Translations under genes and position numbers: made by a program | DNA from: an uncultured Clostridia bacterium | Lineage (GTDB): Bacteria > Bacillota > Clostridia > Christensenellales > Borkfalkiaceae | Reading direction: 5' to 3' | Assembly: GCA_947626935.1 (NCBI GenBank) | Contig: CANQUD010000003.1 | Location: forward strand, 1-64,000 | Length of the DNA: 64,000 nucleotides | Part shown: positions 3,460 to 56,385 of the stretch, piece by piece | Numbering within the stretch: the first letter of the stretch is position 1 | Layout: every line of letters begins with the position of its first letter | The notes under the pieces: generated by a model | What the model was told of the DNA's origin: nothing | The model's input: only the letters and a program-made list of their open reading frames with translations | The model's database searches: none

Positions 3460-3490
3460 CTTCCCCCGAAAGGGGGAAGATTTTTTATTT
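3460..3490 (+). terminator. Rho-independent terminator
   Basis: CTTCCCCCgaaaGGGGGAAG followed by aTTTTTTATTT. Confidence 0.75.
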
Positions 3491-4090
3491 CGCGCGATTT
3501 CTTTTCTTCGAAAATAAATCCGCGCGAGCGAACTGACACTGTGCATCAATTAGGTCGCTCCGAAAACGTTATATGTACTGACATTAAGCCTACGGTAGTG
3601 TGGCAAATTGGGTGCGCTTTGGCGGGGGAACCCCGCCACGCGCAGTGATTTTAGAATGTCCCCCCCATTCGTCACGGCTGCGCCGTGCCACCTTCCCCCC
3701 AGAGGGGGTCAGGTCTGGGCGAGCCTACCCCTTCGGGGTGGAGTGGCGCAATTCTGCTCAACAGCCCAGTGGGCTGTGAGCTGCGCCACGACAGGAGCGC
3801 TGGCAGGCGCGACGGGCTTTGCGGCGGTCCCTGCCGCCCAAAGAGGCTCCCGCGTAGCGGGTGGTGGGGGGGAACACGCCCCACCCCCTGTCGCGATGCG
3901 ACATCCCCCTCCCACGGAGGGGGTTCATGCCCACCCTCTCCATGGGAGGGTGGAGCGGCGCAATTCTGCTCAACAGTCCAGTGGACTGTGAGCTGCGCCG
4001 CGACATGAGGCGTGGCATCGCCGAAGGGCTTTGCGGCGGTCCCTGCCGCCCAAAGGTAGGGGTGTGGGTCACCGTAGACCGTTCATTCAG
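3491..4090 (+). repeat. Palindromic repeat island (element A copy 1 plus module B copies a and b)
   Basis: Element A hairpin CGCGCGATTTCTTTT...AAAATAAATCCGCGCG followed by GTGCATCAATTAGGTCGCTCCGAAAACGTTAT; module B hairpins at 3743-3789 and 3955-4001. Confidence 0.85.
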
Positions 4091-12111: not shown

Positions 12112-13824
12112 ATGGAAGAAGAGACAAAGACTCCCGTCCCCGAAGAGACGCAGGAGAAGAAAACAAAGAAAAAGAGCCGCCTTCGGGCGTGGTGGCAAAA
12201 TCATAAGCCCACGAAGCGGCGCATCATCCAGCTCTATGCCGCCCTTCTGACAAACGCCAACATCAAGGGCTTTGCGTCGGGACGGATCTACGGCGGCACA
12301 GCGAAATATGCGTGTGTGCCGGGGTTGAATTGCTATTCCTGCCCCGGGGCGGTCGGGGCATGTCCCTTGGGGTCTCTGCAGAATGCCTTGGCGCAGTCGG
12401 GGACCCGTTTCCCCTTCTATGTATTGGGAATTTTGCTGCTCTTCGGCTTGCTGCTCGCAAGGACGATCTGCGGCTTTCTGTGCCCTTTCGGGCTTGTGCA
12501 GGATCTTCTCTACAAGGTCAAGACGCCCAAACTCAAGAAGAGCCGCTTCACCCGCGTGCTCTCCTATCTGAAGTACGTCGTCCTCGTCGTCTTTGTCTTT
12601 GCGCTGCCGACGATCTACGGCGTATTCGCGCACACGGCGCTCCCCGCATTCTGCAAATATATCTGTCCCGCGGGAACACTGGGCGGGGCGGTTGCGCTCC
12701 TCTCGAATGCGGCGAATGAGGGACTGTTCGCGAGCCTGCACGGGCTGTTCACATGGAAATTCTGCCTCATGGTGGGGATCGTCGTCGCCTGTATCTTCAT
12801 CTACCGTGCTTTCTGCCGATTTTTGTGCCCCCTCGGCGCGATCTACGGCTTCTTCAACCGATTCGCGCTCCTCGGCGTCAAGCTCGACAAGAACAAGTGT
12901 ACCGACTGCGGGCTGTGCACCGCCCACTGCAAGATGGATATTCGCCATGTCGGCGACCACGAATGCATCAACTGCGGCGAGTGCATCGACGTCTGTCCCG
13001 CCAAGGCGATCTCGTGGAAGGGGAGCAAGTTTTTCCTGCATCAGAATGCCGTCTATCCCGTCCCCGCACCCGAGACGGAAGAGCGCCCGATCGGAAGTGT
13101 GCTGTCCGTTTTCCCCGTGACGGGCGGGGAAAATGCCGAACAGGCGGAGACCTTGCCCGAAGCTGTCGGGACGAAGCCCGAAGCTGTCGGTTCGGCTCCG
13201 TCGGCGATCGCGCCGAAGGCTGCTCCGAGTCGGAAAGCGCTCCTGCTCCGCATCGCCGCATGGGTCGCGGCGCTTGCCGTTCTCATCTCCGCGCTCGTCT
13301 ATTTCAACGCCTGCGACCGCAGCAAAGAAGGGGGCACGACCCTCGAAGGCGGGAACAAAATCGGCGACATATGTTACGATTTCTCCCTTCCCTGCTATCT
13401 GAAAGAGGGGACGTTCACCCTCTCCGAACACCGCGGCAAGATCATCGTCATCAACTTCTGGGCGACATGGTGCGGCGGGTGCGTTGCCGAACTTCCCGAC
13501 TTCGAGCGCGTGCAGGAAGAGTATGCGGACGAGGTCGAGATTATCGCCGTCCACAGCGCCGACGTGCAGGAAGATGTCGTCAATTACATCGAGCGTCAGA
13601 TCGACGCAAACGACGGGACGCGCACATGGAGCGACTGGAGCCTGACCTTCGTGCAGGACAGCGGCGATGTGTTGGCGAGCGAGACATACGATCTTCTCGG
13701 CGGCTCGAGCGGCTATCCCATGACCGTCATCGTCGACAGAGAGGGGGTCATCCGTTTCTCGCGCGAAGGCTCCGTCTCCTACAACACGCTCAATTCGACG
13801 ATAAAGCTGCTACTTATGGAATAG
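12112..13824 (+). CDS. NapH-like polyferredoxin membrane protein fused to TlpA/thioredoxin-like domain
   Basis: ATG 12112; FLCPFG and FLCPLGAIYGF motifs, CTDCGLCTAHCKMDI and CINCGECIDVCPAKAI 4Fe-4S motifs, then TM and NFWATWCGGCVAELPDF. Confidence 0.85.
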   Translation: MEEETKTPVPEETQEKKTKKKSRLRAWWQNHKPTKRRIIQLYAALLTNANIKGFASGRIYGGTAKYACVPGLNCYSCPGAVGACPLGSLQNALAQSGTRFPFYVLGILLLFGLLLARTICGFLCPFGLVQDLLYKVKTPKLKKSRFTRVLSYLKYVVLVVFVFALPTIYGVFAHTALPAFCKYICPAGTLGGAVALLSNAANEGLFASLHGLFTWKFCLMVGIVVACIFIYRAFCRFLCPLGAIYGFFNRFALLGVKLDKNKCTDCGLCTAHCKMDIRHVGDHECINCGECIDVCPAKAISWKGSKFFLHQNAVYPVPAPETEERPIGSVLSVFPVTGGENAEQAETLPEAVGTKPEAVGSAPSAIAPKAAPSRKALLLRIAAWVAALAVLISALVYFNACDRSKEGGTTLEGGNKIGDICYDFSLPCYLKEGTFTLSEHRGKIIVINFWATWCGGCVAELPDFERVQEEYADEVEIIAVHSADVQEDVVNYIERQIDANDGTRTWSDWSLTFVQDSGDVLASETYDLLGGSSGYPMTVIVDREGVIRFSREGSVSYNTLNSTIKLLLME

Positions 13825-13827
13825 TTT

Positions 13828-14400
13828 CGAACGATTTCTTTTGCTGCGCAAAAGAAATACGTTCGAGCGAACTGACGTTGTGCATCAATTAAGTCACTCC
13901 GAATACGTTATTTGGATTGACATTAAGGTACCTGTAGGGTACCAAATGGGGTGCGCTTTGGCGGGGAGACCCCGCCACGCGCAGGGATTGGGAATACGCC
14001 CCACCCCCTGTCGCGATGCGACATCCTCCTCCCACGGAGGGGGGTTCATGCCCACCCTCTCCATGGGAGGGTGGAGCGGCGCAATTCTGCTCAACAGTCC
14101 AGTGGACTGTGAGCTGCGCCGCGACATGAGGCGTGGCATCGCCGAAGGGCTTTGCGGCGGTCCCTGCCGCCCAAAGGTAGGGGTGTGGGTCACCGCATTC
14201 TCTCGCTGCCCCTTTTAGGGGAAGTCCCCGAGCTCGCGAGGGGAAAGGGGTTTTGAAACCCTTCAGTCTCGCTTCGCTCGACAGCTCCCCTAAACCACCC
14301 CGCAAAAATACTTTGTCTTTTTGCGGGGACCCCGAGGGGCGCCAAGGGGGTACTACGTCATCCCGCCACGTGCAGGGAGTGGCTCTCCGCAATTTCATTC
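13828..14400 (+). repeat. Palindromic repeat island (element A copy 2, module B copy c, module E)
   Basis: CGAACGATTTCTTTTGC tgc GCAAAAGAAATACGTTCG (13828-13865), then GTGCATCAATTAAGTCACTCCGAATACGTTAT; module B hairpin 14076-14122; module E on minus strand about 14200-14347. Confidence 0.85.
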
Positions 14401-17289: not shown

Positions 17290-17900
17290 AAGATAAGAGC
17301 CTGCCCTCTACGGGGTGGAGAGGGTAGAGCCTACCCCTTCGGGGGGGAGTGGCGCAATTCTGCTCAACAGCCCAGTGGGCTGTGAGCTGCGCCGCGACAG
17401 GAGCGCTGGCAGGCGCAGACCGCCCGCATTCTATTTCTTTCGAAGGGCGGCACGAGCGGCATCGCCGCGAAGTACGGGCTTTGCGGCGGTCCCTGCCGCC
17501 CAAAGAGGCTCCGCCGAAGGCGGTGGTGGGGGGGATAACGCCTTATTCCTCTTGTCGCCCCTCGGGGTCCCCGCAAAAAGACAACGTATTTTTGCGGGGT
17601 GGTTTAGGGGAGATGTCGAGGCGTAGCCGAGACAGAGGGGTTTAACCCCTTTGGCTCACTGCGTTCGCCACTTCCCCTACAGGGGCAGCGAGACCCCCCA
17701 TTCGTCACGGCTTCGCCGTGCCACCTGTCTCATGCGGGTAGAGACCCGCATTCGGTCACCGCTCGCACGAGACAATGCGCTCGCTTCTGTCGCAACGCGC
17801 GAAAAGTTCACTGGACTTTTCGCAGAATGCGTTGCTCCACCCCCGCTGGGGGTCAGGTCTCGCTACCACTTTTAGGGGAAAAGGGTTTCAAGTTACGGCG
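17290..17900 (+). repeat. Palindromic repeat island (module B copy d, module E with nested hairpin, module G)
   Basis: Module B 17349-17395; E from about 17549 to 17692 with CCCCGCAAAAAgacaacgtaTTTTTGCGGGG in the loop; module G stem ATGCGGGTagagACCCGCAT 17732-17751. Confidence 0.85.
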
Positions 17901-19204: not shown

Positions 19205-19640
19205 TTTGTTTTGCCCGCCGCGCTTACCCTCTCCATGGGAGGGTGGAGCGGCGCAATTCTGCTCAACAGCCCAGTGGGCTGTGAGCTGCGCCGCGACATG
19301 AGGCGTGGCATCGCCGAAGGGCTTTGCGGCGGTCCCTGCCGCCCAAAGAGGGGAGTGGGTCACCGCATTCTCTTGTCGCCCCTCACAGGGGAGCTGTCGG
19401 GCGAAGCGAGACTGAAGGGTTTCAAAACCCCTTTCCCCTCGCAAGCTCGGGGACTTCCCCTAATAGGGGCAGCAAGACCTTACCCCCTACGGGGGGAAGG
19501 TGGATTTGCGTCAGCAAAGACGAATGGGGGGGAAGTTGTTGGCATTATCCCCCCCACCACCGCCTACGGCGGAGCCTCCCCCCGCTGGGGGTAGGCTCTC
19601 TTACTCTCTCCATGAGTGTACCGCGGTTTGTTCAAAGCAC
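19205..19640 (+). repeat. Palindromic repeat island (module B copy e, module E)
   Basis: Module B hairpin 19248-19294; module E about 19371-19478. Confidence 0.85.
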
Positions 19641-24601: not shown

Positions 24602-24615
24602 AAAAACTCCTTTAT

Positions 24616-25090
24616 GTTTCGAACGATTTTGTTTATTCGTCCACCCCTTGCCCACCCCTTGAGGGGTGGGTGCCCCGAAGGGGCGGAAGGGGTGTCCTTC
24701 AAAACAAAATACGTTCGAGCGAACTTACATTGTGCATCAATTAAGTCGCTCCGAAAACGTTATATGTACTGACATTAAGCCTACGGTAGTGTGGCGCGTC
24801 GCGACACTGCGCAGTTTGCGCGGCTTTGCGGGAACGCAAAGCCGTCGCCTGAAACGTAGGTCGCTCCTTTTCCAAAAAATCTTGCTTTGCAATATTTTTT
24901 GGATGCCTGTGGCTTTGGCGGGGGAACCTCGCTACGCGCAGTAATTTGAGAATGTTCCCCCCCATTCGTCACGGCTGCGCCGTGCCACCTTCCCCCCGCT
25001 GGGGGTAAGGTCTCGGCACAGAGCCTACCCCCAGCGGGGGGAGGCTCCCGCGCAGCGGGTGGTGGGGGGGATAATGCCATTCCGCATTTC
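24616..25090 (+). repeat. Palindromic repeat island (element A copy 3 carrying module D in its hairpin loop and a further approx. 115-nt insertion)
   Basis: CGAACGATTTTGTTT (24620-24634) ... AAAACAAAATACGTTCG (24701-24717) with CCACCCCTTGAGGGGTGGG module between; TGTGCATCAATTAAGTCGCTCCGAAAACGTTAT downstream. Confidence 0.85.
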
Positions 25091-37059: not shown

Positions 37060-37195
37060 GAGTGAATAACACCCCTTCCGTCACTGCGTGACACCCACCC
37101 CTCGAGGGGTGGGCAAGAGGGACCTTGGCTCCCCCTTGAGGGGGAGCTGTCGCCATCGGCGACAGAGGGGGTGTCTCTGTGCGATCGCGTCATGC
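37060..37195 (-). repeat. Module D repeat (intergenic copy)
   Basis: ACACCCCTTCCGTCACTGCGTGACACCCACCCCTCGAGGGGTGGGCAAG...CTCCCCCTTGAGGGGGAG. Confidence 0.85.
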
Positions 37196-37206: not shown

Positions 37207-39156
37207 TCAATTTCGCAAAGATAAATACACCATGAGGACGGCGATGTCGGCGGGGGAGACCCCCGAGATGCGTTCCGCCTGCCCGAGACTGAGCGGCTTG
37301 ATCTTGTTGAGCTTTTCCCGCGCCTCGAGACGCAGCCCCTCGATCGTTTCGTAGTCGAGGTCGGGCGGAAGGGGCTTCCCTTCCATGCGCCGCGCCTTCT
37401 CCGCTTCCGCCTCCGCCCGCTTGAGGTAGCCCTCGTATCTGATCTCCGTTTCGCAGGAGAGCATGACGTCCTTGGGAAGGTCACGGGGGAGAGAGAAGAC
37501 TTCCGCGATCTCCGAAAGGGGAATGCCGCGGCGGATGAGATCCGCATAGCTGACGCCCGCGGTGAGAGGGGGCTCGCCGTGTTTTCGCACGACCATGTCC
37601 GCGATCCCCTGTTCGGCACGTCCCTTGAGAAGGTCCATGAGTCCGTCCCGCTGTCTTTTGCGGTTTCGGTATACCATGTACCGCCTTTCATCGACAAGCC
37701 CGCAGGCATGTCCGTATTCGGTGAGCCGCAGATCGGCGTTGTCTTGCCGCAGGGAGAGGCGGAATTCCGCCCGCGACGTCATCATGCGATAGGGTTCGTC
37801 CGTGCCCTTCGTGACGAGGTCGTCGAGGAGCACGCCGATGTATGCTTCGTCCCGCCGCAGGACGAGCGGGGGAAGATCTCGCAGCTTGAGCGAGGCGTTA
37901 ATGCCCGCCATGAGTCCCTGCGCCGCCGCTTCCTCATAGCCGCTCGTGCCGTTGATCTGTCCCGCCGTGAAGAGTCCTTCGACGCGCTTATATTCGAGGG
38001 TCGGATAGAGGTCGAGGGAGTCGATGCAGTCGTATTCGATCGCATAGGCATAGCGGACGATGTCGCAGTGTTCGAGTCCCTTGACCGTACGGTACATTTC
38101 TTTCTGCAGATCGTGGGGAAGGGAAGTGGACAGCCCCTGCACGTAGACCTCGGTCGTGTCTGCCCCCTCGGGTTCCAGAAAGAGCTGATGGCGGGGCTTG
38201 TCCGCGAACCGCACGACTTTCGTCTCGATCGAGGGACAGTACCTCGGTCCCGTCGAGGAAATCTGCCCGTTGTAGAGGGGAGCGCGGTCGAGATTTTGAA
38301 GGATGACCTCGTGCGTCCTTTCGTTCGTCCACCCGAGATGGCAGGGCGTCTGCTCTTCGGGGACGGTTTCGTTCAAAAAGGAGAATGGATACGTATTTTC
38401 GCCCGCTTGGACGTCGAGGGCGGAGAAGTCCACCGTCCTTCCGTCGAGACGGGCGGGCGTCCCCGTCTTGAACCGCCTGACGCGAAAGCCGAGGGAGAGA
38501 AGGGACTGCGTGAGCGCGGTCGCCCGCGAGAAGCCGTTCGGACCGCTCTCCGCGACCGTTTCGCCCGTGATCGTCTGCGCGTTGAGATAGACGCCCGTCG
38601 CGACGACGACGGCGCGGCAGGAAAAGATCCCCCCGTACGTCGTCCTGACGCCGACGACGCGAGGGGGAAGAACACCCCTTCCGTCACTGCGCGACACTCC
38701 GTCGAGGGGCGGGCAAGCGGGATCTTGACTCCCCCTTGAGGGGGCGTCATTCAAATTCTCCACCAAGATCTCCGCCGCTTCGCCCTGCACGATGCGAAGA
38801 TTTTTCGTGTGCTCGAGGACGCGCTTCATCTCGGTGTGATACTTGTTCTTATCCACCTGCGCACGGAGAGACTGCACGGCGGCGCCCTTTCCCTCGTTCA
38901 GCATCCGATATTGCAGGGCGCACTTGTCGGCGACGAGACCCATTTCCCCGCCGAGCGCGTCGATCTCACGCACTAAATGCCCCTTCGCCGTACCGCCGAC
39001 GGAGGGGTTGCAGGGCATGAAGCCGATACTGTCGAGATTGAGGGTGAGCATGACGGTCGAACATCCCGTCCGCGCGAGGGCGAGGGCGGCTTCGCACCCC
39101 GCATGTCCCGCGCCGATGACGACGGCGTCAACGCTTCCTTCCGAAAAAGTACGCAT
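37207..39156 (-). CDS. mnmG: tRNA uridine-5-carboxymethylaminomethyl(34) synthesis enzyme MnmG (GidA)
   Basis: DAVVIGAGHAGCEAALALARTG, CNPSVGGTAKGHLVREIDALGGEMG, VVVATGVYLNA, FFTAGQINGTSGYEEAAAQGLMAGIN-like motif. Confidence 0.95.
   Translation of the reverse strand: MRTFSEGSVDAVVIGAGHAGCEAALALARTGCSTVMLTLNLDSIGFMPCNPSVGGTAKGHLVREIDALGGEMGLVADKCALQYRMLNEGKGAAVQSLRAQVDKNKYHTEMKRVLEHTKNLRIVQGEAAEILVENLNDAPSRGSQDPACPPLDGVSRSDGRGVLPPRVVGVRTTYGGIFSCRAVVVATGVYLNAQTITGETVAESGPNGFSRATALTQSLLSLGFRVRRFKTGTPARLDGRTVDFSALDVQAGENTYPFSFLNETVPEEQTPCHLGWTNERTHEVILQNLDRAPLYNGQISSTGPRYCPSIETKVVRFADKPRHQLFLEPEGADTTEVYVQGLSTSLPHDLQKEMYRTVKGLEHCDIVRYAYAIEYDCIDSLDLYPTLEYKRVEGLFTAGQINGTSGYEEAAAQGLMAGINASLKLRDLPPLVLRRDEAYIGVLLDDLVTKGTDEPYRMMTSRAEFRLSLRQDNADLRLTEYGHACGLVDERRYMVYRNRKRQRDGLMDLLKGRAEQGIADMVVRKHGEPPLTAGVSYADLIRRGIPLSEIAEVFSLPRDLPKDVMLSCETEIRYEGYLKRAEAEAEKARRMEGKPLPPDLDYETIEGLRLEAREKLNKIKPLSLGQAERISGVSPADIAVLMVYLSLRN
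38668..38752 (-). repeat. Module D repeat inserted in frame inside mnmG
   Basis: ACACCCCTTCCGTCACTGCGCGACACTCCGTCGAGGGGCGGGCAAGCGGGATCTTGACTCCCCCTTGAGGGGGCGTC; matches the intergenic copy at about 37065-37150. Confidence 0.85.
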
Positions 39157-39189
39157 AGTCGTTGAAATGAATGATTTTGCCTGTTTTTT

Positions 39190-39630
39190 GTTTCCCGAGG
39201 GGGGGATGACGTGGATACCCTTGGCTCCCCTCGGGGGTCCCGCTTTCTCTTGTCGCCCCTCACAGGGGAGATGTCGAGGCGTAGCCGAGACAGAGGGGTT
39301 TTAACCCCTTTGGCTCACTACGTTCGCCACTTCCCCTAAAAGGGGCAGCGAGAGGAAAACTGCGGTGACCCACACCCCTACCCCTCTCCCATGGAGAGGG
39401 TGGACTTGAACCCCCTCCGTGGGAGGGGGATGTCGCAACGCGACAGGGGGTGGGGCGTGTTCTCAATCGCTGCGCGTGGCGGGGTCTCCCCGCCAAAGCG
39501 CACCCCATTTGCCACACTACCGTAGGCTTAATGTCCCTACAAATAACGTGTTCGGAGTGACCTAATTGATGAACAACGTTACATCGCTCGCGCGGATTTA
39601 TTTTGCGAAGCAAAAGAAATCGCGCGAAAT
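39190..39630 (-). repeat. Palindromic repeat island (element A copy 4 on minus strand, module E)
   Basis: Minus strand CGCGCGATTTCTTTTGCTTCGCAAAATAAATCCGCGCG from 39626, then TCATCAATTAGGTCACTCCGAACACGTTAT; module E about 39249-39354 on plus strand. Confidence 0.85.
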
Positions 39631-39635
39631 TAATT

Positions 39636-40973
39636 TTATTGTTTCAGTACCGCGCTCTTGATGTCGTTGACGTCCTTGGTCGTGGCGTCGGAGACCTTCA
39701 TGAGCGAGGCGATCTTGTCGCGCGAGTAGATGACCGTGGCGTGGTCCCTGCCGCCCATCTCCTTTCCGACGGTGACAAGGGGGAGCGCCAGCATTTCGCA
39801 CATGAGATAGGTGCAGATCTGTCTCGCCCGCACGAGTTCCGCCCGCTTGTTCTTGCCGAGAAGGGCGTCCCGCGAGATCGAGAAGTGTGTGCACGTCGCA
39901 TGGATGATGCTCTCGGGGGTGACGACCGCCGTCTCGTCCACATTGATGGCTTCCTGCAGGGCGGTCGCGGCGAGCTTGAGGGTGATCGGCTCCTCATGCA
40001 GTTTGCTCGCAAAGATGACCGTGTTGAGCCTTCCTTCGAGCGTCCGCACGTTGCTGTCTGAATTTTTCGCGAGGAAATTGAGGACATCGTCGGGCACGAC
40101 ATACTTTTTCTCGAGCGCCTTGCGCTTCAGAATGGCGATCTTCGTTTCGAGGTCGGGCGGCTGGATGTCTGCGATGAGTCCCCCCTCGAAGCGGGTGCGG
40201 AGACGTTCCTCGAGCGTTGTCAGGTCCTTTGCGGGGCAGTCGGAAGAGATGACGATCTGCTTATTCTGCGAGGAAAGTTCGTTGAAGGTATGGAAGAAGG
40301 CTTCCTGTACGCCGTATTTCCCCGCCCAGAACTGGATGTCGTCGATGAGGAGCACGTCCACACCCCTGTAGCGGTTGCGGAAGCGGGATTCCCTGCCTTC
40401 GCCCTTCCTTGCAAGGCTGTCGACAAATTCGTTGAGAAACTGTTCGCTCGTCGTGTATTTGACCTTGAGCGTCGGTCTCTTCTCCTTGAGTTCGTTGACG
40501 ATCGCCTGCATCAGGTGCGTCTTGCCGAGACCCGTTCCGCCGTAGATATAGAGGGGATTGTATTCCGCCCCGGGGTTGTTGGCGACCGACCGCGCCGCCG
40601 CATAGACGAACTTGTTGGACGAACCGACGACGAAGGAGTCGAAGGTATAGCGGTTGTCGACCGTGACGGGGGAGTCCTCAAAGGCGTCGGGCAGGTTGTC
40701 GAGGGTGTATTCCTCGCTCCCGTCCACGACGATGGCAACGTCCGAAAGCCCCACATCGGCGGTCTTGACCGCCTCGCGGATCTGGGAAAGATGATGGGTC
40801 GTCACCGTCTTTGCGACGAGTTCATCCTCCGCCTTCAGGACGAGGGTGCGGTTGACGACGTCCACAGGCTCGAGATTCTCGATGAAGGCGCCGTAGGGGA
40901 TGGGCATGACGAGCTGCTTGATGCGCTCGCGGATCTTCGCCCAAAGATAATCGTACTCTGTTTTTTTTGCCAT
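39636..40973 (-). CDS. dnaA: Chromosomal replication initiator protein DnaA
   Basis: YIYGGTGLGKTHLMQAI, LLIDDIQFWAGKYGVQEAFFHTFNEL, GGRDHATVIYSRDKI. Confidence 0.97.
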   Translation of the reverse strand: MAKKTEYDYLWAKIRERIKQLVMPIPYGAFIENLEPVDVVNRTLVLKAEDELVAKTVTTHHLSQIREAVKTADVGLSDVAIVVDGSEEYTLDNLPDAFEDSPVTVDNRYTFDSFVVGSSNKFVYAAARSVANNPGAEYNPLYIYGGTGLGKTHLMQAIVNELKEKRPTLKVKYTTSEQFLNEFVDSLARKGEGRESRFRNRYRGVDVLLIDDIQFWAGKYGVQEAFFHTFNELSSQNKQIVISSDCPAKDLTTLEERLRTRFEGGLIADIQPPDLETKIAILKRKALEKKYVVPDDVLNFLAKNSDSNVRTLEGRLNTVIFASKLHEEPITLKLAATALQEAINVDETAVVTPESIIHATCTHFSISRDALLGKNKRAELVRARQICTYLMCEMLALPLVTVGKEMGGRDHATVIYSRDKIASLMKVSDATTKDVNDIKSAVLKQ

Positions 40974-44229: not shown

Positions 44230-44755
44230 GCTCTCATACCCTCTCCATGGGAGGGTGGTAGGGGTGTGGGTCACCGCTTTTCTCGTCGCCCCTCACAGGG
44301 GAGATGTCACGAGCAACGCGAGTGACAGAGGGGTTTTGAAACCCCTTTCCCCTCGCAAGCTCGGGGACTTCCCCTAAAAGGGGCAGCGAGGGGTACAACT
44401 TCTCCCCGTCCCCCGTACGTCATTCCGAACGCATGTGAGGAATCTCGTCCTTGAGATTTCTCGGCTACGCCTCGAAATGACGTGAATGCAGAGTCCCCTT
44501 GTCGCCCCTCACAGGGGAGATGTCGAGGCGTAGCCGAGACAGAGGGGTTTCAAAACCCCTTTCCCCTCGCAAGCTCGGGGACTGTCTCGGACGGGTAGAG
44601 ACCCGTCCTCGGTCACCGTTCGCGCGGGATAATGCGCTCACTCACCGCAAAACGCAGCGCACAGCACACCGTGCTGATGCGCAAGAATTGCGTTTTGCGA
44701 CCCTAAAAGGGGCAGCGAGACCTGACGCCCCACTGGGGTAAGCAAATTCCATGGC
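44225..44755 (+). repeat. Palindromic repeat island (two module E copies, module F, module G)
   Basis: Module E about 44281-44392 and 44498-44720; module F with ACGTCATT/AATGACGT arms 44417-44483; module G stem GGACGGGTagagACCCGTCC 44589-44608. Confidence 0.85.
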
Positions 44756-54315: not shown

Positions 54316-55623
<1,308 letters not shown>

Positions 55624-56385
55624 TTTCGAACGATTTTGTTTTTTCGTCCACCCCTTGCCCACCCCTTGAGGGGTGGGTGCCCCGAAGGGGCGGAAGGGGT
55701 GTCCTTCAAAACAAAATACGTTCGAGCGATGTAACGCTGTTCATCAATCGAGTCACTCCGAATACGTTATTTGTATTGACATTAAGGTTCCTGTAGGGTA
55801 CCAAATGGGGTCGCCCACGGCGGAAGTGAATTCCGCCTATGGCAAGTGATTTATATGTTTCGAACGATTTTGTTTTGAAGCTCACATTTTTCTTCGACTC
55901 GACACGTCATTCCGAACGCAGTGAGGAATCTCAAAACAAAATACGTTCGAGCGATGTAACATTGTGCATCAATTAGGTCACTCCGAATACGTTATATGCA
56001 AGGACATTAAGCCTACGGTAGTGTGGCAAATGGGGTCGCCCACGGCGGAAGTGAATTCCGCCTATGGCAAGTAATTGGGGAATGCCCCCCCACCACCCGC
56101 TGCGCGGGAGCCTCCCCCCCGAAGGGGTAGGCTCTGTGCCGCCGCCAAGACCTTACCCCCTACGGGGGGGAGGTGGCACGGCGCAGCCGTGACGAATGGG
56201 GGGGATAACGTCATTCCGCATTTCCTTGCTGCCCCTCATAGGGGAAGTGCCCCGTAGGGGCAAAGGGGTTTCAAAACCCCTCTGTCACTCGCGTTGCTCG
56301 TGACATCTCCCCTAAACCACCCCGCAAAAATACTTTGTCTTTTTGCGGGGACCCCGAGGGGCGACAAGGGGACTCCGTCTCATTC
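55624..56385 (+). repeat. Palindromic repeat island (element A copies 5 and 6 in tandem, module E)
   Basis: CGAACG 55627-55632 / CGTTCG 55719-55724 with module D inside; CGAACG 55861-55866 / CGTTCG 55944-55949 with module F fragment inside; module E about 56224-56370 on minus strand. Confidence 0.87.

Follow-up and report, generated by a model that had tools for sequence, protein, structure and literature searches.

Intergenic spaces in the genome of an uncultured Clostridia bacterium hold islands in which short repeat modules recur in changing combinations, raising the question of how such mosaics are assembled and what moves their parts. We addressed it starting from one stretch of 64,000 nucleotides in contig C3 (hereafter, the window) and extended the analysis to the rest of the genome and to related species. 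The islands are probably products of nested insertion of non-autonomous, REP/IS200-like hairpin elements into other palindromic repeats, followed by amplification of the resulting composites.

Repeat islands and their modules

The source genome is a rabbit-gut metagenome-assembled genome (MAG) of 1.675 Mb in 55 contigs, of which 1.617 Mb, taken as stretches, was covered by the genome-wide counts. Its DnaA protein is 83–88% identical to those of rabbit-gut Clostridia MAGs and ~70–76% identical to those of Candidatus Gallimonas species; judged from sequence, we place the genome in or adjoining the genus Candidatus Gallimonas. Islands were delimited by repeated 14-mers. There are ~210 of them, amounting to 71.5 kb or 4.4% of the 1.617 Mb, the longest being 960 bp. 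Many contigs end within modules (e.g. C6, C13, C21, C47, C48, C49 and C53), so that the repeats probably broke the assembly and all copy numbers given here are lower bounds.

The islands listed in the initial annotation are all present in the window sequence, and additional ones were found at 1–300, 24613–25079, 37069–37149 and 55623–56372. The main window islands occupy the intergenic spaces almost from gene to gene. They consist of element A and of palindromic frames (V, E/S, R-W, T, P, D), some of which hold a filling (B, K, Z1 or Z3). The principal features are listed below; R1 denotes matches to a covariance model of the bulged hairpin described further on.

3488–3654, plus strand: element A, consisting of a left hairpin (TTTCGCGCG...CGCGCGAGCGA), a core and a 3′ hairpin at 3621–3637
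3660–3717, minus strand: inverted, empty T frame of the CGTGACGAATGGGGG family (token pattern and unit reading)
3723–3872, plus strand: R-W frame with filling B (B at ~3741–3843; assigned from R-W length classes)
3879–3925, minus strand: inverted V unit, 5-C form, with small hairpin TGTCGCATCGCGACA (token pattern and unit reading)
3933–4074, plus strand: V frame with filling B (B at ~3953–4055; R1 match C3:3955–4001) and tail GTAGGGGTGTGGGTCACCG
13824–14349, plus strand: island of A, inverted V, V with B (B at 14074–14176; R1 match 14076–14122) and S/E with H in the hairpin loop
17322–17905, plus strand: island of R-W with long B (17347–17505; R1 match 17349–17395), E/S with H in the hairpin loop, and inverted T with Z3 (~17725–17840, minus strand; R1 match 17791–17836)
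19223–19597, plus strand: island of V with B (B at 19246–19348; R1 match 19248–19294), E/S and inverted R-W
24613–25079, plus strand: island of A with P nested in the left hairpin (P at ~24643–24700), inverted T and R-W
39218–39629, minus strand: island between dnaA and gidA, with E/S, inverted V, V and A (reverse)
44234–44722, plus strand: island of V in the exact empty form (44238–44277), E/S, and a second E/S with Z1 (~44583–44700, minus strand)
55623–56372, plus strand: island of two tandem A copies, one with P and one with X in the left hairpin, followed by inverted R-W, T and S/E with H

A further repeat, GTCATTCCGAACG..GTGAGGAATCTC, occurs inside hairpins and between units (window 55870–55935 and 44420–44480).

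The sequence at 3601–3640 is, as first described, the end of the A core followed by the 3′ hairpin GGCGGGGGAACCCCGCC. The GGCGGGG/CCCCGCC hairpin that the initial annotation placed after A does exist, but it belongs to A itself and is one of four alternative stems, found in 12 of the 52 A copies within islands. All four stems take one position (window 3580–3650, compared over the 52 copies), and the 3′ hairpin of A is thus another instance of a structure that is kept while its sequence changes. Element A is also polar: in 52 of 52 copies its 5′ side coincides with an island edge (25 copies) or adjoins a P (25) or X (2) unit. Judging from the window, these P and X units seem to be nested within the left hairpin of A itself.

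Order and orientation of units

Modules were tokenised genome-wide by short patterns and collapsed into units. The clustering statistic for unit transitions was 7770 over 462 adjacent pairs, compared with 2913 ± 144 after a full shuffle of units (maximum 3552 in 2000 shuffles; z ~34), 3982 ± 180 when only the order within islands was shuffled and 4345 ± 89 when only orientation was. Both order and orientation are therefore non-random, in agreement with the adjacency proposed at the outset. The tokens were defined after the sequence had been seen and blocks that spread as one are counted several times, so this z-score gauges non-randomness and does not count independent events. Adjacency is most pronounced for inverted E/S with inverted V (46 pairs against 12.6 expected), inverted R-W with T (38 against 3.0) and inverted A with inverted P (25 against 1.9). 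In total, 82 distinct transitions were found, and an identical pair may occur in several relative orientations.

There are several preferred unit orders, none of them fixed. The chain from A through inverted V and B-filled V to E, taken initially as the typical order, is real but represents a minority, with 9 of the 52 A copies showing the succession A, inverted V, V; the neighbour after A is more commonly inverted R-W (14 copies) or inverted T (13 copies). Likewise, the CCCCACCCCCTGTCGCGATGCGACAT stretch reported after the hairpin is present, yet it is a V unit read in reverse.

Frames hold fillings in constant slots

Filled and empty states were read from frame lengths; junction finding with 13-mers was swamped by tandem copies. 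The lengths fall into discrete classes. V-Y measures 35–38 nt (46 copies), 49 nt (40), 138–140 nt (16), 197–199 nt (2) or 86 nt (one); E-S 92–105, 137–146 or 201–218 nt, with one copy of 296 nt; R-W 43–49 nt when empty and 149–150 or 205–208 nt when filled; and P-p 49–70 or 159–171 nt. The steps are due to a small hairpin (+12 nt), to H in the loop of E/S hairpin 1, and to four longer, non-coding fillings, B, K, Z1 and Z3, of ~103–118 nt (B also has a form of ~160 nt). Each longer filling sits in a constant slot, immediately 3′ of the G-run that belongs to the first hairpin of the frame, and by reading its left flank is that G-run plus TGGA, TGA, TCG or AAG. Filling B is found in V, R-W and E, Z1 in S and D, K in P, and Z3 in T. 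Unfilled copies prevail, with 86 V frames lacking B and 19 holding it, and 57 and 10, respectively, for R-W. Most copies of one filling share both frame and flank (e.g. 19 of 21 K), so that independent insertions in this genome must be far fewer than the copy number. Evidently, composites were copied as blocks.

Junctions could be read most clearly in element A. Empty copies in the source genome have AAATTGGGTG/CGC (the slash marks the slot), while B-filled A reads AAATTGGGTG/GAGCGG...CAAAG/CGC in G006 (L236) and AAATTGAGTG/GAGCGG...CAAAG/CGC in G051 (L241), which puts B at GGGTG/CGC in both relatives. For V, the B-filled frame at 14054 shares its left 21 bases and its right flank with the empty frame at 44238–44277; the only difference is B itself, 103 nt, without target duplication. 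The exact pre-insertion form of V is represented by one copy, whereas the standard empty form (GGGAGAGGGGTAGGGG, 37 copies) differs at the slot, and in the P and S slots ~3 frame bases are missing beside the filling (K and Z1, respectively); precise insertion is thus best seen for A and one V copy. We infer that the direction was insertion rather than loss. In IS200/IS605 transposition, guide tetranucleotides select the cleavage sites. The GC skew of the genome, relevant for checking the strand bias of fillings expected under lagging-strand transposition, is weak.

The fillings share a fold

The conserved feature of the fillings is their fold, not their sequence. The sequences of B, K, Z1 and Z3 diverge, with stems that are completely different between families, but each filling opens with a hairpin composed of an outer stem, a 5′ bulge ATTCT, an inner stem and a three-base loop. 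Together with relatives from other species they make up a superfamily whose fold comprises a left hairpin, in which a five-base bulge has the sequence RTTMT, a right hairpin and, in most cases, a middle hairpin between the two. Scanning the source genome for this geometry with ATTCT returned 92 places, ~90 of them in these families. Of eight control 5-mers, seven returned 0–2 places, and the remaining one, CATTC, captures the identical hairpin with a one-base register shift.

Alignment A1, made from 12 distinct sequences, has 89.5% of its cells paired, and covariation is 0.578 against 0.183 after shuffling (0 of 500 shuffles) and at most 0.242 for slid structures, the fairer control; the structure was derived from the same sequences and K is misaligned by two columns, making these figures a guide. 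For six family representatives, fold z-scores run from −4.1 to −10.5, and every one of them forms the left bulged hairpin as well as the right one. K and the two G027 relatives have a strong middle hairpin; that of B, Z1 and Z3 is weak or takes a different form. By reading, Z1, Z3 and several relatives have an unpaired TGACCGA-like stretch before the right hairpin.

Distribution and exchange between species

The superfamily is restricted to the genus. Covariance model R1 matched 52 of 61 genus genomes with 1–101 copies each, the source genome included, so that copy number ranges over 0–101 across the genus; in an order-wide sample, 6 of 7 genus genomes were matched but none of the 193 other genomes. 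The sequences that were compared with phage and plasmid collections had no counterpart there. With Rfam, the window yielded no match at gathering scores, nor did the elements at 18 loci of relatives match at E-values up to 5, and a literature search for such repeats in Gallimonas-related bacteria returned nothing relevant. With 0–101 copies per genome within one genus, the fillings amount to an extensive natural data set on elements that retain their structure while their sequence varies freely.

Homologous slots are filled differently by different species. The P slot, occupied by K in the source genome, holds a Z3-like element in G056 (L253); the S slot, occupied by Z1, holds other families in G043 (L260) and G039 (L277); the T slot, occupied by Z3, holds a Z1-like element in G009 (L252); and the D slot, occupied by Z1, holds a B-like element in G037 (L245). 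A frame with the hairpin CTCCCAAAA...TTTTGGGAAGAGG contains a B-like element in G060 and G041 (L242 and L239) and another family in G027 (L258). With one filling in different frames and one frame with different fillings across species, the mosaic, combinatorial construction proposed initially is supported, and comparison between species makes hairpin-directed transposition and BIME-type mosaic growth testable. In G019, a related bulged-hairpin element directly follows the 5′ half of a tRNA-Arg, exactly past the GGGG of the anticodon stem.

Islands themselves turn over between species. The interval between dnaA and gidA (39156–39636 in the window) spans 13 bp in three relatives, in others between 59 and 640 bp, and its repeat content differs from species to species across the genus.

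A 5′ half of tRNA-Arg(CCT), ending at the anticodon stem, lies beside an intact tRNA-Arg in G019 (L257:1460–1770) and in G018 (L214).

Search for a mobilising enzyme

The initial annotation suggested looking elsewhere in the genome for a RAYT, IS200/IS605 or integrase gene. No match to PF01797 (Y1_Tnp) was obtained in the source genome, nor were there matches to PF07282 (TnpB), PF01548 (IS110) or PF00078 (reverse transcriptase). Multi-copy protein genes in this genome are spurious ORFs within repeats and one adjacent pair, with nothing transposase-like among them. PF01797 matched in 16 of the 61 genus genomes; these genes are of IS200 type, and at the loci read they have other ends and are not flanked by modules. 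Thus, no candidate transposase was found in the source genome, and none consistently across the genus. Integrases fared differently: four tyrosine recombinases are encoded outside the window (C9:34924, C20:16821, C40:13154 and C2:31581), but they are ordinary-looking and only that in C20 adjoins an island. The one in C40 is apparently frameshifted, and those read look, by sequence, like phage or ICE integrases. With a completeness of 93.7% and an assembly that breaks at repeats, a partner gene could be missing from the MAG. The filling superfamily points to a putative mobilising enzyme.

Origin of the islands

The palindromic frame families A, V, E/S, R-W, T, P and D are scattered in intergenic spaces. 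According to the scenario that we consider probable, these frames would have received the fillings (B, K, Z1, Z3 and relatives) by insertion at fixed slots, each immediately behind the G-run of the first hairpin on its 3′ side, without target-site duplication where the junction is readable. Filled composites would then have been amplified as units, which, together with the polar position of A, could have produced the preferred module order. The shared fold may represent single-stranded DNA ends recognised in trans by an HUH transposase (IS200/IS605- or RAYT-like) that is now lost or not yet recognised. Absence of duplication, hairpins at both ends, the bulge and the fixed left flank are all expected from single-strand transposition of the IS200/IS605/RAYT kind; that an HUH enzyme acting in trans moves the fillings is, even so, a tentative guess. 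It is also possible, if doubtful, that the fillings are short non-coding mobile elements of an undescribed, genus-restricted kind, with the RTTMT-bulged fold and freely changing stems, which recognise hairpins, are themselves recognised by hairpins and insert 3′ of palindrome G-runs (in frames, in A and in the tRNA anticodon-stem fragment) by means of an enzyme outside the families searched.

Mosaics could instead have arisen without any transposase, chiefly through hairpins that recombine or switch templates at G- or C-runs they have in common (copy choice). Such a process would suit several observations: every junction lies at a G-run, frames and fillings alike are palindromic, no transposase was found, small losses occur beside the P and S fillings, and stems vary with compensation within one genome. 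We nevertheless hold copy choice to be rather unlikely as the main source, given that filling ends and sizes are constant, that B occupies an exact position in A and that the G019 element lies behind a tRNA-Arg fragment, neither target having evident homology to the frames except for a G-run. Moreover, conservation of the bulge sequence alongside divergent stems speaks for recognition by a protein.

It seems improbable that a filled frame is a single structured element, such as an RNA gene or regulator, with the short forms as its deletion products. One filling recurs in element A and in frames unrelated to each other, short forms are more numerous than long ones in both V and R-W, Rfam has no match, and species differ from none to 101 copies. 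This has to be set against the conserved fold with changing stems, the unpaired TGACCGA-like linker of several families and the unproven direction of insertion in V. Finally, descent of all islands from one long repeat by deletion, the alternative that would undermine the mosaic interpretation, has very little to commend it: some islands (families D2–D4) do share long collinear stretches, but the 82 transitions, the varied orientation of identical pairs, the presence of B in V, R-W and E frames and an order that is preferred rather than fixed do not support it.

Comparison with known systems

The proposed nested, hairpin-directed insertion invites comparison with known repeats, and the initial annotation likened the islands to BIME and integron mosaics. 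The BIME analogy holds insofar as both involve palindromes in composite arrays, while the integron analogy is unsupported: there is no cassette array behind a single attI-like site, the fillings are non-coding and lie in scattered frames, and no attC-like R′/R″ motif was noticed. NIME, Correia elements and pneumococcal BOX, like the islands described here, are intergenic mosaics of short repeat modules, NIME being repeats bounded by one short inverted repeat; to our knowledge, nested bulged hairpins in slots have not been described for them.

The fillings share with REP, BIME and REPIN sequences (PMC3733652, PMC8266576, PMC3116915) a high copy number of intergenic palindromes, composite arrays, family-specific stems and, in the case of E. 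coli REPs, a bulged hairpin; the E. coli RAYT, TnpA_REP, requires the bulge in the REP hairpin (PMC8266576). They differ in that RAYT-mobilised REP/REPIN systems have a RAYT gene flanked by the repeats, whereas this genome has no Y1_Tnp gene. A REP/REPIN palindrome is 20–40 nt, whereas the fillings are 103–118 nt with several hairpins and a five-base bulge and, unlike REP/REPIN, are nested inside other repeats. By reading, no GTAG or CGTC foot motif was noticed at the filling hairpin. Non-autonomous IS200/IS605 derivatives, or palindrome-associated elements (family properties in part from PMC6006769), resemble the fillings in being small, in having a subterminal hairpin at either end and a short fixed sequence flanking the left one, and in leaving no target duplication; the difference is that no autonomous TnpA copy with matching ends was seen in the source genome or at the genus loci read. 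Insertion sequences that target REP palindromes (PMC1525189) are likewise mobile elements inserting specifically into palindromic repeats, but here the inserter is a tiny non-coding hairpin element and the slot partner of many copies. Known RNA families (e.g. HEARO/omega RNA) found no counterpart in the Rfam searches of the window and of the 18 relative loci. We could not match the genus-specific filling superfamily to any described one, and regard it as related to REP/REPIN and IS-derived palindromic elements. Classical, DDE-type MITEs differ from filling B, which lacks a target duplication (in V and A) and, by reading, a terminal inverted repeat. The E/S frames have inverted ends.
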